Of a stretch of 64,000 nucleotides of DNA, positions 15,970 to 37,617 are shown one piece after another. A model generated the notes under the pieces. That model did no database searches and was not told the DNA's origin. It worked only from the letters and a program-made list of their open reading frames with translations. This stretch comes from Marine Group II euryarchaeote MED-G38 (GTDB taxonomy: Archaea > Thermoplasmatota > Poseidoniia > Poseidoniales > Thalassarchaeaceae): the NCBI GenBank assembly GCA_002457145.1, contig NTJP01000003.1:1-64000 (forward strand). Direction: 5' to 3'. Both the position numbers and the translations under genes were made by a program. The first letter of the stretch is position 1; the number at the start of each line of letters is the position of its first letter.

Positions 15970-16097
15970 AGTTTTCCCAACAAAAACTCCTTCTTGAGTC
16001 CTTTGTCTGAAATATTATTTAGACTGCATTAGTAGTACTTTAATGACACAATTATACAAAGAGATTGAAAAACTGTACTCGTGACTCAAGTGTAAGA

Positions 16098-18206
16098 ATG
16101 TCCAAAGAAGCCGACGATTCATTTGATGGAGATAGACTCTCTAGAATGACAGTTGTAGAATTAAGAGAAATATGCAAAAACCTACAATTAATGGTTTCTG
16201 GAAATAAATTAATATTAATTGATAGAATTTTAGAATTCAATGGTAATAAAGAAAGAGATATTGAAGTAGAGAATGAGCAAGTTTTGTTATTAGAAGATGA
16301 TGATGACATAAAGGAAGATATTATCGGCGATGCAGTTGATAAATTAATTATAAAAAAAATTATTTCTAAAAATGATGAAATGACTCAACCAAAAGTCACT
16401 TTAGATTTATTAGAAGATAAAGGAAATGATATACTTGAGGCAGAAATATTTGTAGAAGACAATTCTCTAAAGCCTGAAATTATGGGCAAAGATGATTCTG
16501 CATCAATGGTTATCACACTACCCTCACTAAAAAATATTAATCTCAATACTAAGGTTATAGGTGCGATTTTTGCCATCATACTCTTACTAGGTGCCACGGT
16601 CTTTCTCGTTCTAAATAATAATAATTCATTCTCTGCCAAACCTCTAAATTATGGTGATGAAATGAACTTTAATGTCGATGAAGTAAGAGTATCTATTATT
16701 GGAGATGATATGGTGCAGATATTTCGTGACTCTTCAGGTGGAATATTAGATGAAGCATGTGGCGAATTAGAAATTAATATGGCAGGAGAAGGAAAAGTTT
16801 CCATTTCAAGAGATGAAAAGATTTCTACAGATAGTCTTGGACGTTCTGGATTTTACACAGCTGAGAAAAAAATAGAACATGACTTAGTTGTAGATTTTGA
16901 AGGAAAAACTTGGAGAGATACTGATGATTGCGGTAATCTAGGATGGTCTATGGCAAATAATATTCTTGATATGAATTCAATGTCCTGGACAGAATTAGAG
17001 GACAAAGATCTAAAAAGAACTAATACAGATATATCATTTACTGATATAGAAAATGAAGTAACAAACCTACAAGTTGTTACTTACGGGTTGGAAGGATTGG
17101 GAGATTTAGACCTCCTCATACCTATACTGACATTTCCCCTAAAGCCAATTGAATTACATTCTTTTTTTGGAGATAGGTCACTTTCCGAAGGAACTTCCTC
17201 TAAGAATGATCAGGATTGGAGTTCAGATTGGGAATGGACAGTCGGTGCAGAAATAAATAGTAAAAATCATGGTCTCGTCTATCCTGTAACTATTCATCAT
17301 GTTGAAATCGGTAAATGTATCGGCCATGCAAATATAGAAATAGAAGTCAAAGCCAATAATCCATGGCCGGTAAGTCAAGAAGTTGATATTCTAATTGATA
17401 AAGAAACATCTAATTCTGATTGTAATTTCTTATTAAGTTCAGCAGCAGAAACAATACTACCCGAGGGCAGACTTACCATAAGATTAGTAATGGGAGAAAC
17501 TAAAACTTCTTTAGGCACGACTCCAATTAACTGGGGTAAAGAGTATCTAAAACCAGAAACTGGAGAAGATCAACCAAGAACTTCTGATAAGAAAAAATGG
17601 TCTGATTCTATGTGGGATGAATCAGATATTCGAATTTTTAATTTAGAAACTGCAAAAGAATGTCTAATGAATAATCATTCTTCTTCAGATGCAGCACGTG
17701 CAATTATTGATGGAGGATATTTATGGCAATCATATTGGGAATATCCGGATGATTTTAATGATCCACAATGGAATCTTTCATGGGTTGATCCGGAAGATAA
17801 TTCAGGTTGGATAGTATTGAGTGGTAACAGTTCCTTGGACTGTAAAATAATTAGTAGTAAAAATAATGACAATGGAGAGATAATTTGGAACAGACCCGCC
17901 ATTCCTGATACTCCATCTTTAAATCTTTTAGAAAAAAGAATATTAAATCCTGATAGATATCCTGATCTTAATCCCCTGATAACTTCAAATCAGAATTCTT
18001 GGGATTCTGAAATTAAAATAGGCTACAGACTCTCAGTGTCTAATGAAAATGAATTGCTAAGTACTCTACCAATAAATTTAGGGGAAGGACAAGTATCTAT
18101 AATAGGTTCAAAAAATTGGGTAGAGTCCGGAAAAGATCACTCGAGTTATTTCGCTATGAATGGTGAAACAGGAGAAATGTTAGCCTGGTATCATATAGCC
18201 AACTAA
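16098..18206 (+). CDS. SAP-domain membrane protein with large outer region
   Basis: Residues about 17-48 form a SAP DNA-binding motif (VVELREICKNLQLMVSGNK, then LIDRIL). An acidic linker follows (LLLEDDDDIKEDI). A single membrane helix spans about residues 153-172 (IFAIILLLGATVFLVL). The remaining approximately 530 residues lie presumably outside the cell, with scattered Cys and many Trp/Asp. If topology is N-in, the protein could attach DNA to the membrane. It is followed 71 nt later by parA in the same direction. The ATG at 16098 was preferred over a TTG at 16065. Confidence 0.75.
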   Translation: MSKEADDSFDGDRLSRMTVVELREICKNLQLMVSGNKLILIDRILEFNGNKERDIEVENEQVLLLEDDDDIKEDIIGDAVDKLIIKKIISKNDEMTQPKVTLDLLEDKGNDILEAEIFVEDNSLKPEIMGKDDSASMVITLPSLKNINLNTKVIGAIFAIILLLGATVFLVLNNNNSFSAKPLNYGDEMNFNVDEVRVSIIGDDMVQIFRDSSGGILDEACGELEINMAGEGKVSISRDEKISTDSLGRSGFYTAEKKIEHDLVVDFEGKTWRDTDDCGNLGWSMANNILDMNSMSWTELEDKDLKRTNTDISFTDIENEVTNLQVVTYGLEGLGDLDLLIPILTFPLKPIELHSFFGDRSLSEGTSSKNDQDWSSDWEWTVGAEINSKNHGLVYPVTIHHVEIGKCIGHANIEIEVKANNPWPVSQEVDILIDKETSNSDCNFLLSSAAETILPEGRLTIRLVMGETKTSLGTTPINWGKEYLKPETGEDQPRTSDKKKWSDSMWDESDIRIFNLETAKECLMNNHSSSDAARAIIDGGYLWQSYWEYPDDFNDPQWNLSWVDPEDNSGWIVLSGNSSLDCKIISSKNNDNGEIIWNRPAIPDTPSLNLLEKRILNPDRYPDLNPLITSNQNSWDSEIKIGYRLSVSNENELLSTLPINLGEGQVSIIGSKNWVESGKDHSSYFAMNGETGEMLAWYHIAN

Positions 18207-18277: not shown

Positions 18278-19246
18278 ATGCCCGATTATATCGTGATTAA
18301 TGTGAAGGATAACACATCCCTTCCCGATGTAGATAAAGCACCTCTTATTCTAGATGTAGAGTTTTTAGAAACTGAAGAGAATATCGATATCACAATTTTA
18401 GATTCTTTCGAAGAAGTTCATACATCAAAAAAATATGGAGCAGTAGAATTACCTAAATCACTAAGTAGCCCAAGGGAAAGAGCCCGAGTAGTTACAGTAA
18501 TTAATCAAAAAGGTGGAGTCGGAAAAACAACTACAGTAATCAATGTAGCAGCCCAATTGGCTCTCCGTGGCCACAATATTTTGGTAATTGATTCTGATTC
18601 CCAAGGTAATTGTGCAACTGGCCTTGGTGTTGATAAAAGCAAAGTTCGTGAAACAACTAGAGATCTAATCCTTAATCCTGAAACGGCTATCAGCGCACGC
18701 CATGCAACCGCTGTCGATAAATTACATTTAATTGTAGGCGATAAGAATCTGATTGGTTTAGAACAAGAAATGCTTAGGCAATTAGGGCGAGAAAAACGTT
18801 TATCTGAGGCTTTAGAGCCTTTACTACCTCATTATGATATCATTCTTATTGATACGCCACCTTCATTAGGATTAGTTACAATAAATGCATTGGTAGCTAG
18901 CGATGGTCTAATTATCCCTGTTCAAACAGAATATTTTGCTTTAGAAGGTCTCGCTTTAATGTCTGGAACTATTAGAGAAGTAAGAAATTTATTGAACCCC
19001 AGGCTTGGCGTCGATGGCGTTATTCTAACTATGCATTCATCAACACAACTAAATCAACAAGTTGCGAACGAAATCATAGACTATTTTCCAGAATTGATTG
19101 TTAAACCTGCAGTTAGGAGAAATATCAAGTTAGCCGAAGCTCCAAGTCATGGAATTCCTATTCATTTGTATGATCCTAAAAGTGCGGGCGGCAAGGATTA
19201 TCAAGAAATTGCTTCTGTTTTATCTCGACGCTGGAGTTTAATTTAA
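18278..19246 (+). CDS. parA: ParA/Soj-type partition ATPase
   Basis: A deviant Walker A INQKGGVGKTTTVINVAAQ is followed by IDSDSQGNCATG and Walker B IILIDTPPSLGL. The C-terminal core AVRRNIKLAEAPSHG is typical of chromosomal ParA/Soj. A poorly conserved extension of about 70 residues precedes the ATPase. ParA forms ATP dimers on DNA and is stimulated by the N-terminal tail of ParB. No complete parB follows; the next gene begins at the very next base and encodes a membrane protein with a ParB-like N-terminus. Confidence 0.93.
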   Translation: MPDYIVINVKDNTSLPDVDKAPLILDVEFLETEENIDITILDSFEEVHTSKKYGAVELPKSLSSPRERARVVTVINQKGGVGKTTTVINVAAQLALRGHNILVIDSDSQGNCATGLGVDKSKVRETTRDLILNPETAISARHATAVDKLHLIVGDKNLIGLEQEMLRQLGREKRLSEALEPLLPHYDIILIDTPPSLGLVTINALVASDGLIIPVQTEYFALEGLALMSGTIREVRNLLNPRLGVDGVILTMHSSTQLNQQVANEIIDYFPELIVKPAVRRNIKLAEAPSHGIPIHLYDPKSAGGKDYQEIASVLSRRWSLI

Positions 19247-20203
19247 ATGAAAAAAAGTGCATTGGGCAGAGGCTTAAATTCTATGTCAAGTCTCACCGAG
19301 GATGGACCAAATCTCTCAAGTTTCATCAGAAATAAAGATGAAAAATCACCAACTGATTCTCCAAGTATTGCTATACTTTGGATGATATTTGGTAGTGTTT
19401 GTTTTGGTACTATGAACGCACTAGTTAAATGGACATCAGTAGATGCAGATGTTTGGATGATAATTTTTATGCGATCATCTGTGATTGCTATAATTGTTGC
19501 ACTATATGCAAAAGCCAACTCTGTAAATTTAAAGCCTAATGATTCAAAAACAATGTTTCTAAGATGCTTAGCAGGTTTAATTGCAATGATATTGTATTTT
19601 TCAGCATTATCTAGGATACCCATAGGACAAGCGGTTACATTACAATATACTGCACCACTATTTGTTGCCCTGTTGTCGGGTAGAATAATTAGAGAGCAAG
19701 TTTCGAAGCCTGTTTTATTATTACTAATAACTTCTTTCTTTGGAATAATACTTGTAGTATCTCCCGGCACTGGAAATTTAGAACCAGATGCATTACTTGC
19801 TTTAGGGTCAGGTTTTTTTGCAGCTATTGCATATATCTATGTTAGGAAACTACGTCATACAGACTCACCCTCTTCAGTAGTTTTTTGGTTCGCTACTTTT
19901 TCTGTCATAGGTAGTATAATTCAAGCAGCCCCTAATCTTTTATCCTTGAGTGTAGAAACCATAGCTGCATTAATAGGAATTGGAATTGGTGCTGGAGGTG
20001 GACAAGTTGGAATAACAATGGCGTATCACAAAGCTAACGCAGCATGGGTTAGTGCATTCTCCTATCTTACTGTTATCGTAGCAACATTTTATGGATATAT
20101 TATTTTTGATGAGAGTTTAACGAATACAAACCTAATTGGAGGTATTTTAATAATTTTTTCTGGCATATCACTGGCTCTCTTACCGCCTTCAAATAAAAAA
20201 TAA
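19247..20203 (+). CDS. EamA/DMT transporter with ParB-like N-terminal tail
   Basis: Residues about 42-315 contain about ten hydrophobic helices in two EamA repeats (SVCFGTMNALVKW, then LALGSGFFAAIAYIYVR), the drug/metabolite transporter fold. The first residues, MKKSALGRGLNSMSSL, closely resemble the start of ParB/Spo0J proteins, where the LGRGL motif activates ParA. The ATG abuts the parA stop codon with no gap. The tail is predicted cytoplasmic. The transported substrate is unknown. A start at Met13 would remove the tail, but the abutting ATG is better placed for coupling. Confidence 0.85.
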   Translation: MKKSALGRGLNSMSSLTEDGPNLSSFIRNKDEKSPTDSPSIAILWMIFGSVCFGTMNALVKWTSVDADVWMIIFMRSSVIAIIVALYAKANSVNLKPNDSKTMFLRCLAGLIAMILYFSALSRIPIGQAVTLQYTAPLFVALLSGRIIREQVSKPVLLLLITSFFGIILVVSPGTGNLEPDALLALGSGFFAAIAYIYVRKLRHTDSPSSVVFWFATFSVIGSIIQAAPNLLSLSVETIAALIGIGIGAGGGQVGITMAYHKANAAWVSAFSYLTVIVATFYGYIIFDESLTNTNLIGGILIIFSGISLALLPPSNKK

Positions 20204-20204
20204 C

Positions 20205-20771
20205 TTATGTTTGAAATCTTCTCCAAAGCACCATTGTAAAAACAGACATAAGTGCAATTAATGATACAATTTTCGAGTAGGCTACGATCTTTGATTCATT
20301 ACTTTCAGAGTTGCAAGACTCATCTATTCCGCCCCATTCTTCACCATCAAACCAACAATTAGACCATACTTTCCAACCAAAACCACTTTCGGGAAAACTT
20401 TGCTCATCTCCATCACTCCAATTCATTTTTATACGCCAATTAATATAGCTGGCATCATCGTCTATATTTACCGACCCAACTAATTTACTTTCCTCATTTG
20501 ATACCCAGTCTTGATTATTTTCTGGAGGATAACAAACTCCAGTATTTATACAAATTTGTGTTACCCACGTGACTTGGGTTCCATTAGCAGATGTTTCTGA
20601 ATCTAACTCTAATTCGATTTCAAAAGACTCTGATGCAAAGGCTAAGTCGTCATAACTCATAGAATTTAATCCAGTTCCTTCAAGACTCATTTCTTCATTA
20701 ATTCCCCCCGAACCTCCTGATACACTTGATAAAAAAATTAACACAACACCTGACACGATAAGCATGCGCAT
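20205..20771 (-). CDS. Predicted secreted, membrane-anchored protein
   Basis: A signal peptide (MRMLIVSGVVLIFLSSVSGG) begins the protein and a single C-terminal helix (IVSLIALMSVFTMVLW) ends it before a basic tail RRFQT, which suggests a surface protein anchored at its C-terminus. The middle is acidic, with paired Cys (ICINTGVCYPPEN and NCWFDGEEWGGIDESCN). No known domain was recognised. The ATG at 20771 gives the best signal peptide; an in-frame ATG at 20798 exists. It lies downstream of the PUA gene. Confidence 0.65.
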   Translation of the reverse strand: MRMLIVSGVVLIFLSSVSGGSGGINEEMSLEGTGLNSMSYDDLAFASESFEIELELDSETSANGTQVTWVTQICINTGVCYPPENNQDWVSNEESKLVGSVNIDDDASYINWRIKMNWSDGDEQSFPESGFGWKVWSNCWFDGEEWGGIDESCNSESNESKIVAYSKIVSLIALMSVFTMVLWRRFQT

Positions 20772-20811
20772 GTTAATCCGTACCTCTACAAAACACATTA
20801 ATACTCTTGAT

Positions 20812-21315
20812 TCAAGTTTCTAATTCCCATAATTCATCACCGATCCAATGTATTGTTTGTATGGCCTTACCTTTTGTCATTTCTATCATTTCATTTCCAT
20901 CGACCATTGCAATTCCAATGGCCAGCGGTTTACCATGTTGTTGATCTTTTATCCATATCAAATCTCCTGATTTTAGTGATATGTCTGTTAGGTGAACGCC
21001 AGCACCCATACAATCAGCTCCATTCATCAAAAAAGGTATCGCACCATGATCTACTGCAGCCCATTTAATTTCCGGCAACCACTCTAAAATTCCTCTAATC
21101 GTTGGAAACCATGATTTACCATTTTCAGTACTCACTTGGAATGCTAAAATTACTCTATCTATCAATAATACATCTTTATCATCAAAATTTGCTTTTTCTA
21201 AAAATCTATCAGAAATATCAAATTCAACTCCGATTTTTTTTTCTATTTCATTGATTATACTTTTCACTTGTTTATATCTAACAGGTGTCCGTCGCCTTAA
21301 CTTCTTCTCACTCAC
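20812..21315 (-). CDS. PUA-domain RNA-binding protein (MCT-1/Tma20-like)
   Basis: The N-terminal part resembles the pre-PUA domain of MCT-1-type proteins. The C-terminal part is a PUA domain with VDHGAIPFLMNGADCMGAGV, aligning with the MCTS1/Tma20 core, then GDLIWIKDQQHGKPLAIG. Relatives bind the ribosome and help start or recycle translation. The GTG start is at 21315. It is divergent from the S8e gene. Confidence 0.85.
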   Translation of the reverse strand: MSEKKLRRRTPVRYKQVKSIINEIEKKIGVEFDISDRFLEKANFDDKDVLLIDRVILAFQVSTENGKSWFPTIRGILEWLPEIKWAAVDHGAIPFLMNGADCMGAGVHLTDISLKSGDLIWIKDQQHGKPLAIGIAMVDGNEMIEMTKGKAIQTIHWIGDELWELET

Positions 21316-35505: not shown

Positions 35506-35608
35506 AATTCTAGATATATCTAACATAGCAAAAAAGCCACTATTGAGTAAATTTTAACCTGCGAACTCAAATATTACAAAAGTTTCGTAGATGTGGGGAT
35601 GGACATTA

Positions 35609-36712
35609 ATGAGTGAAAGCAAGCCATCAGAAAAAGTTGATAATGAAGCTTCAGATGAACTTGCAGTACTTAGAGCTCAACATACACTCTCATCTTCGTC
35701 AACGATGGAGTCACTTGCCAGGACTAGAGATAGATTAGATGAAGAATCTAGATTAAGATCAGGAATAAGAAGAGAAAGAAGAATGCGAATCTCTGAGATG
35801 TCAGAAAGACTGTCTGGCATGCACGGTGCGATGAGGAAGGCTAATGAAATATTTTTTGAAGATCAGATTCAACAAATTGAAACAGATTTAAGAGCTGAGT
35901 TAGAAGACGAGTTGGAAAGACTTGAGTCAGAGGCTTTAGAGAGAGAGGAAAGATTACTCAGAGAAGAAATGTTACACCGTCTTAGAAGAGAAGAAAATAG
36001 ATTAAGAGAACAATTAGATCTTGAGAGAGACAGAAGAGTTGAAGCTCACTCTTCTAAAATTAGAACTAGGTTAAAACAAGAAATGGAATTAGAATTTACA
36101 AGAAGAAAAGCATTTTTGAATGAAAGACTGGAATTAGAGGCTACTCAAAATATTGAACGTATGGAAAGAAGAGTTGAGATGGATTTACGAGAGTCTATGG
36201 AATCTCAGGTACATAGAGTAGTTGAAGCATATAGATTGGACCAAGAAATACAAATGCGTGAAACACTAGCTAAAGTACGAAGGACCCGAGAGTCTGAATT
36301 ACAAAAACAAATGAACAATGAACAAAAATCTCTCGAAAAAGAAATGATTTCCGATGTTGATATTAGAATTAAAGTATTACAAGAAGAGTCTGAACGAGCT
36401 GCTCTAGCCGAACTAGATCGTAGATTCCGTTCAGAAAGGGAAACTATGGATATTGCTTTAGCATTACGTAAACAAGAGCTTGCATTAGAGAAAGAAGTAG
36501 AAATGGAACAAAGAATATCATTATTTGTTAAAGAAAGAGAATTAGAATTAATGAATAAATTAGAAGAGCAATTATCAAAAAGAAGTAAACTATCTGAAAA
36601 AGAAATAAATGAAGTAATAAAATCTTTAGAATCTGAAATTAAAGTTAAAATAGAATCAATACTCATCGACACTCGTCAAAGTATGTTAGAAACACATTCT
36701 TCTGAGGATTAA
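35609..36712 (+). CDS. Long coiled-coil protein
   Basis: From about residue 20 to the end the protein is almost all charged heptads (ERLLREEMLHRLRREENR and similar), with no membrane helix, no Cys and no catalytic motif. It should form a rod or filament. Arg, Glu and Leu dominate. The ATG at 35591 would add six residues (MWGWTL); 35609 is used. Its stop overlaps the convergent second ParA gene by 4 nt. Function unknown; the ParA neighbour suggests a structural or partition role. Confidence 0.7.
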   Translation: MSESKPSEKVDNEASDELAVLRAQHTLSSSSTMESLARTRDRLDEESRLRSGIRRERRMRISEMSERLSGMHGAMRKANEIFFEDQIQQIETDLRAELEDELERLESEALEREERLLREEMLHRLRREENRLREQLDLERDRRVEAHSSKIRTRLKQEMELEFTRRKAFLNERLELEATQNIERMERRVEMDLRESMESQVHRVVEAYRLDQEIQMRETLAKVRRTRESELQKQMNNEQKSLEKEMISDVDIRIKVLQEESERAALAELDRRFRSERETMDIALALRKQELALEKEVEMEQRISLFVKERELELMNKLEEQLSKRSKLSEKEINEVIKSLESEIKVKIESILIDTRQSMLETHSSED

Positions 36713-37617
36713 TTATTAAGTATTTTTTTAATTTTGATATCAACTTCTTTTGCTAGTGACCAATAGGCCAAGCTGCCTTGATTAGCACTAGTTGGCTTTT
36801 GAGTAATAACAATTGGCGCCCCTTCGAGTGGAGATTCTGCTATTGATACTGAACGTTGAATTTGTGTTTTGAATACATGATCTCCAAAATGCTTACGAGC
36901 TTGCTCTGAAACAGTCTCGCATAGCTTACTTCGTGTTTGAACCATTGTGAGTAGTATGCCAAACAATTTTAGGTTAGGATTGACAGCTTTCTGCACATTT
37001 CTTATAGAATGCATTAATTGATTCATACCTTCTAATGCATAAAATTCTGCTTGGATTGGAATTAATACCCATTCAGATGCTGATAAAGCATTTATGGTCA
37101 ATAACCCAAGGGAAGCCGGAGTATCGATTATGATTAAATCAAAATCATTTTTAATTTTACTAATAGCAATCTTCAATCTATTTTCTCTCCCTATTCTAGT
37201 TGCTAAATCTATTTCTATACCAGACAAATCCAGATCAGCAGGTAATATCCAGATATTTTTTACTTCGATATTTCTTGGTGGACCTCTACTTCTATCTGGA
37301 TTATGAATTTTCCAAGATTTTCTCATAGCCCTAGTTATTCTCTGTGGGCCAATTAGATACTCAGTAATATCTAATTTTGAACCTTCTATTTCACCTTTAA
37401 ATAATTCATTCATAGTCAAACCAATATTTTTCTTATCTAGTCCAAATGTAGTAGCTACATTCCCTTTAGGATCTAAATCTATCAATAATACTTTTTTTGG
37501 CATAATTCCTAAACTATCATTACCATTCGCCAGAGATACTGCTAGATTTACTGCAGTTGTAGTTTTAGCACAACCGCCTTTGTGATTTATGCAAGCAATA
37601 ACTACAGTCACATACAC
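36709..37617 (-). CDS. Second ParA-family ATPase
   Basis: A deviant Walker A NHKGGCAKTTTAVNLAVS, IDLDPKGNVATTFG and the Walker B IIIDTPASLGLLTI are clear. An insertion of about 35 residues sits between the first two motifs (LTEYLIGPQRIT region). The C-terminus keeps the AESPLEGAPI motif of ParA/Soj. It differs from the parA at 18278 in lacking the N-terminal extension. No parB is adjacent; the neighbour is the coiled-coil gene. Start GTG 37617 or 37611. Confidence 0.88.
   Translation of the reverse strand: MYVTVVIACINHKGGCAKTTTAVNLAVSLANGNDSLGIMPKKVLLIDLDPKGNVATTFGLDKKNIGLTMNELFKGEIEGSKLDITEYLIGPQRITRAMRKSWKIHNPDRSRGPPRNIEVKNIWILPADLDLSGIEIDLATRIGRENRLKIAISKIKNDFDLIIIDTPASLGLLTINALSASEWVLIPIQAEFYALEGMNQLMHSIRNVQKAVNPNLKLFGILLTMVQTRSKLCETVSEQARKHFGDHVFKTQIQRSVSIAESPLEGAPIVITQKPTSANQGSLAYWSLAKEVDIKIKKILNN

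Follow-up and report, generated by a model that had tools for sequence, protein, structure and literature searches.

The gene that directly follows parA in the stretch of DNA analysed here (64,000 nucleotides, hereafter the window) encodes an otherwise ordinary transporter that probably carries a portable ParA-binding tail, which would place the partner of ParA in the membrane. This reading draws on the tail itself, its adjacency to parA and its conservation, on the apparent replacement of a soluble partner, on the loss of the tail motif together with parA, and on a predicted N-in topology, all of them read from sequence. The source genome, from an uncultured marine archaeon, comprises 1.37 Mb in 21 contigs and is 75% complete. 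Its order appears to be Poseidoniales (marine group II), with Thalassarchaeaceae as the first and Poseidoniaceae as the second of the two families compared below; genera are denoted by g numbers. The features of the locus are collected in Table 1.

Table 1. Features of the parA-transporter locus, with positions in the window.
Feature	Position	Strand	Remarks
Upstream neighbour with a SAP (DNA-binding) domain at the N-terminus, one TM helix (residues 164-182) and a large outer domain	16065..18206	+	Order-wide synteny
ParA (Soj type)	18278..19246	+	Stop TAA 19244-19246; catalytic and DNA-binding residues intact; ~65-residue N-terminal extension
DMT/EamA-type ten-helix transporter, 318 residues	19247..20203	+	PF00892; N-terminus predicted inside; ATG at 19247
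Putative ParB-type ParA-binding tail, residues 1-10 (MKKSALGRGL)	19247..19276	+	Hydrophobic anchors L6, L10 and, just beyond, M13; R8
Second conserved tail motif, residues 19-27 (DGPNLSSFI)	19301..19327	+	pN/pS 0.17 within genera
Variable linker before TM1, residues 28-40	19328..19366	+	Length and sequence variable
Small protein, predicted to be exported; syntenic marker behind the partner/transporter slot	20205..20798	-	Same neighbour at many soluble-partner loci
PUA-domain protein, second syntenic marker	20812..21315	-	Domain match, synteny

The N-terminus of the transporter reads MKKSALGRGLNSMSSLTEDGPNLSSFI, and its ATG begins on the base right after the parA stop, as the original prediction had stated. 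That prediction also held that the HTH and CTP-binding domains of ParB are absent and replaced by a ten-helix membrane protein. In agreement with this, a domain search of the transporter returned EamA only (PF00892, E 1.8e-26, two repeats) and no ParB_N/CTP-binding domain, and ten hydrophobic segments were recognized. Foldseek placed SLC35B1 as the best structural match (TM 0.75) and also returned 5i20 (16% identity). Counts of Lys plus Arg are 17 versus 2 on the two sides of the membrane, the N-terminal side being the richer, so the tail should be cytoplasmic in the predicted topology. The protein thus shows EamA repeats, ten TM helices and, by prediction, the cytoplasmic N-terminus of the EamA/DMT transporters, and residues 1-36 are disordered in the structure model.

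The nearest relatives outside the order are about 44% identical and belong to a sister order of the same class. They begin with '...DSPQLAISWM' or similar and have no tail, and parA was not detected in the genomes that hold them. The tailed protein therefore corresponds to a complete transporter of the ordinary kind, preceded by a tail module, and the DSP at the end of its linker marks the point at which ordinary tail-less transporters start.

The upstream ParA is of the Soj type. KGGVGKT, D58, D60 and N64 are invariant, and every ParA examined from the order has Arg or Lys at position 238; the deviant Walker A motif, the catalytic Asp and the basic residue for binding nonspecific DNA are thereby present. 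Residues 1-65 form a variable extension that contains an acidic motif, (L/I)(D/E)(V/A)(E/D)F.E.E, in most of the first family. Upstream of parA, the gene for the SAP-domain protein is syntenic at the loci examined, including those that lack parA; this single-TM protein is a candidate membrane anchor for DNA, and its presence is in keeping with a locus that deals with both DNA and membrane. Elsewhere in the window lies a gene for a second ParA-like ATPase (36709-37617, minus strand) with an odd Walker A motif (KGGCAKTT), common across the order; it is convergent with, and slightly overlaps, a gene for a 373-aa highly charged, coiled-coil-like protein (35591-36712, plus strand).

We fetched 50 loci with orthologous transporters, and at all 50 the transporter gene lies directly behind parA, with a start offset of -22 to +3 nt according to the start chosen. 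The tail, LGRxL followed by GPDLSSF, is kept in 28 of these loci from five genera (g1, g6, g11, 4/7 of g4 and 1/4 of g9). In the other 22 (g8, g10, the remainder of g4 and g9, and the record NAT54), tail and linker are absent together and the protein starts near TM1, so retention of LGRGL by orthologs was confirmed for part of the family and not for the rest. The distribution fits about four losses of the tail. As parA is still adjacent after these losses, the tail is not essential to either gene, and both the losses and the sister-order relatives, with neither tail nor parA, indicate that transporter and tail are separable.

Among tailed orthologs, L6, G7, R8 and L10 are invariant and position 13 is occupied by a hydrophobic residue in every case (V, I, M or L). 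Comparisons within genera gave pN/pS values of 0.23 in the tail core, 0.17 in the GPDLSSF motif and 0.19 in the TM1 region, and the linker varies freely. By these measures the tail resembles a selected peptide rather than a leftover. A profile of the tail recovered this transporter at E 1.2e-15, and across 146 related genomes its other matches at E ≤ 0.007 were confined to the tails of orthologous transporters and to the N-termini of the soluble partners described below. The best non-partner match thereafter, at E 0.008, is a frame of 88 residues from a genome in which parA was not detected, and it looks like chance. This score and specificity rule out a chance motif, and the tail that had been noted on the transporter is confirmed. 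No other tail-bearing protein was found in the tail-less genomes, where two weak matches (G054, G072) look like chance; completeness of the present genomes is 62-97%, a range that applies equally to the absence of ParB.

Several circumstances had been named beforehand that would have undermined the prediction. An assembly join is ruled out, since the same junction recurs in 28 separately assembled genomes, and a start at Met13 fails to explain the family because many orthologs do not have Met at position 13. Likewise, neither this genome nor others of the order yielded a complete ParB. ParB_N matches in this genome are weak, short and lie elsewhere; HTH_ParB has no match in this genome, and the few weak matches in the order do not fall at the ParB_N places. 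One weak ParB_N match (L001, 1400-1850) was rejected as a ParB, being a short ORF with neither HTH nor tail; its protein is presumably an enzyme of the ParB/serine-kinase fold and not a partition ParB.

At 77 bacterial parA loci retrieved with this parA, the next ORF contains G[RK][GNS][LIVM] within its first 30 residues in 69 cases, and its consensus reads KK[GA]LG[RK]GLDAL[IF]. In Myxococcus ParB, binding is due to the hydrophobic residues L11, L15, L18 and I19, and ATPase stimulation to R13 (PMC12462528). Equivalents of L11, R13, L15 and L18 (the last as V, I, M or L) are present in 27/27 transporter tails scored, and the position of I19 is mostly small or polar in the same 27. The transporter N-terminus thus contains the LG[RK]GL ParA-binding motif of the ParB family and, as a short, basic and disordered N-terminal peptide encoded next to the gene of an ATPase, shares these features with the ATPase-activating partners (AAPs) of ParA/MinD. 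On the comparisons made here, ParA binding by the tail can be inferred with good support.

A comparison with sister genera disclosed what else may occupy the slot. In g2, g3, g5 and g7 of the first family and g16, g17, g19 and g21 of the second, parA is followed by the gene of a 130-160 aa soluble protein that begins like KKRVLGRGLDDLLAQHDQDLPFLDAYG, with the same LGRGL tail. The original prediction had taken a full ParB to be the replaced partner; instead, the sister genera hold this tailed soluble protein. It is present throughout the order (loci L161-L180, L231-L239, L243-L260) and was not found outside it in a phylum-wide sample of 293 genomes, nor elsewhere in genomes with the orthologous transporter. 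The two never co-occur, the overlap in G110 being a 27% identical paralog only. We found no relative of the soluble partner in Pfam, NCBIfam or the PDB. The core of its structure model is confident (pLDDT over 90), and a weak match to the type III secretion chaperone SycT (E 0.012, TM 0.37-0.45) does not lead us to claim that fold. LPLVPSDL is another kept motif of the family. The tails of transporter and soluble partner probably have a common ancestry, given a match of about 15 residues and the shared position, and the second tail motif of the transporter perhaps corresponds to D.DLPFL.AY of the soluble partner, at a similar spacing. The assembly G043 contains parA-partner pairs typical of two genera (L172 and L173; g3-like and g7-like), which suggests a mixed assembly.

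The second family also includes genera in which parA was not found and the soluble partner is kept (g12-15, g18 and g20); at those of their loci that offer sufficient sequence upstream, the SAP-protein gene runs up to the partner gene or stops shortly ahead of it. Its retention across the order where parA was lost implies that the soluble partner must have a function beyond ParA. LGRGL occurs in 0/24 soluble partners without parA (second family) versus 19/22 with parA (both families). The raw Fisher p of this contrast (4e-10) is an overstatement, since about three changes underlie it in the tree, a number that does not permit a phylogenetic test. The segment LDHLMEQN.TEL.FLSAYG, beside the LGRGL position, is retained by the soluble partners of parA-less genomes.

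In the ParA tree, into which some soluble-partner ParAs entered with an untrimmed N-terminus, the ParAs of the transporter type make up a single group (SH-aLRT 93) that lies inside the soluble-partner types, and this topology fits a single replacement followed by about four tail losses. To evaluate the peptide site, we used the pocket described for the Myxococcus ParB peptide, which comprises Y81, D110, V116, E117, L150, L152, L155, L187 and L192, Y81 being the Tyr thought to meet the Arg of the tail (PMC12462528). In the tailed transporter lineages E117, L150, L152, I155 and L192 are kept; Y81 is replaced by Arg, V116 by Gln and L187 by Glu. With a basic residue at the first of these positions and polar or acidic residues at the other two, the pocket is altered. 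At the equivalent of Y81 (residue 128 here), the ParAs examined from this order have Arg or Lys without exception, versus Tyr in 74/75 bacterial ones. This replacement leaves binding better supported than ATPase stimulation, and the earlier statement that the tail Arg activates the ATPase of ParA cannot be transferred as it stands.

The pocket also changes where the tail is lost. Fixed in all 28 tailed lineages are 161 ParA columns, 135 of which are unvarying in tail-less clades. The fixed columns that vary in most tail-loss clades are the equivalents of Myxococcus L152 (4/4) and L155 (3/4), both located in the pocket; the probability that the top two columns fall there by chance is about 0.001 (6/161 x 5/160, for six pocket columns). 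This drift is supportive and not proof, as the changes (L152I, I155V) are conservative and I152 or V155 is also seen in tailed soluble-partner genomes.

Other explanations of the tail were weighed against these data. An accidental leftover of the gene replacement, on its way out and with no function for ParA, would account for the roughly four losses, which left a transporter of normal length behind parA. However, the tail is under purifying selection about as strong as that on TM1, and L, G, R and L are fixed in 28 loci from five genera next to a linker that is variable in length and sequence; we consider such decay quite unlikely. It is unlikely, too, that the tail serves transport, with ParA gating or energising the transporter in the manner of ArsA and ArsB, or with the transporter reporting a metabolite to ParA. 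The transporter does adjoin an ATPase, its tail is predicted to be cytoplasmic, and ParA belongs with ArsA/Get3 to the P-loop superfamily (a weak profile match). Yet sister genera use the same tail without the transporter and the sister order has the transporter with neither parA nor tail, which points to ParA partnering and not to energised transport, and ParA retains its DNA-binding Arg/Lys.

The tail could also address some other protein, for example the second ParA-like ATPase, its adjacency to parA being incidental. That ATPase is widespread in the order, but adjacency to this parA is strict (50/50 loci), clades without the tail show drift in the pocket columns of this ParA, and LGRGL is gone from the parA-less soluble partners, although the second ATPase remains in most of their genomes. 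A different target is thus very improbable.

The preferred reading remains a ParA-binding tail fused to an ordinary transporter. The N-terminal ~27 residues would be a working ParA-binding tail of the ParB kind, descended from a soluble ParA partner that still occupies the slot in sister genera. As for the order and direction of evolutionary events, we infer that in the ancestor of several genera an EamA transporter replaced the folded domain of the soluble partner and the tail stayed; the original start of the transporter would then be 'DSPxxAVxWM' before TM1. Nucleoid-bound ParA-ATP dimers would meet the tails of membrane transporters, and the peptide would dock at the edge of the ParA dimer and probably trigger release. 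The outcome could be ParA-dependent placement of the transporter, spread over the nucleoid, or a coupling of nucleoid and membrane together with the SAP-domain membrane protein. The wider proposal, in which ParA-based spatial organisation in this lineage operates through an integral membrane transporter, nucleoid ParA being activated at the membrane by a transporter that inherited the tail of a soluble partner and the chromosome coupled to the membrane with the SAP-domain protein and with no ParB, has in our estimate an even chance of being correct.

ParA-type ATPases are cargo movers, and the cargo is set by a short peptide on the partner. The order appears to have performed a natural swap experiment, in which one peptide, encoded just after the same parA, is carried either by a soluble protein or by a transporter and is missing from lineages without parA or with a drifted pocket. 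If this is right, the partners of ParA extend to integral membrane proteins, and candidates open to tests with peptides of ~27 residues become available for a group of archaea in which ParA occurs and ParB does not.

Among known systems, the chromosomal ParB/Spo0J of ParABS shares the position directly after parA and an N-terminal tail that is basic and contains both LG[RK]GL and the hydrophobic anchors (PMC12462528). In contrast to it, the transporter has neither a ParB/CTPase domain nor an HTH, and its remainder is a ten-helix membrane protein. In PomX, McdB, TlpT, ParG and MinE, too, the domain that determines the cargo bears a short peptide at its N-terminus, basic and disordered (PMC7993993, PMC12204374, PMC10241942). 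Those carriers are soluble or peripheral, unlike the polytopic archaeal transporter described here. MinE binds the membrane peripherally, and an activator acting at the membrane is what the present system would have in common with MinD/MinE. Unlike MinD, which is without most of the ParB-binding pocket (PMC12462528), the ParA described here is of the Soj type with the DNA-binding Arg/Lys. DMT/EamA transporters (5i20 fold, SLC35B1) agree with this protein in fold, ten helices and an N-terminus inside, but ordinary members, including the nearest sister-order relatives, have no tail. The arsenite pump ArsA/ArsB joins a soluble deviant-Walker ATPase to an integral membrane transporter and so resembles this locus in pairing ATPase and transporter; ArsA, however, drives transport and has no partner with a ParB-type tail, and ArsB is from another transporter family.

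Searches of the open-access literature yielded nothing on an integral membrane transporter that carries a ParA peptide, on the soluble partner family or on partners of ParA in this group of archaea, and nothing relevant on LGRGL with ParA or on Marine Group II with ParA. That grafted N-terminal peptides make a protein a partner of ParA/MinD is an established principle (PMC7993993, PMC10241942, PMC12204374), and the activating peptide can be grafted onto protein-, DNA- or membrane-interacting domains (PMC7993993). With grafted peptides already known and membrane-interacting carriers foreseen (PMC7993993), what appears to be new here is an integral transporter as the carrier, together with the soluble partner family.
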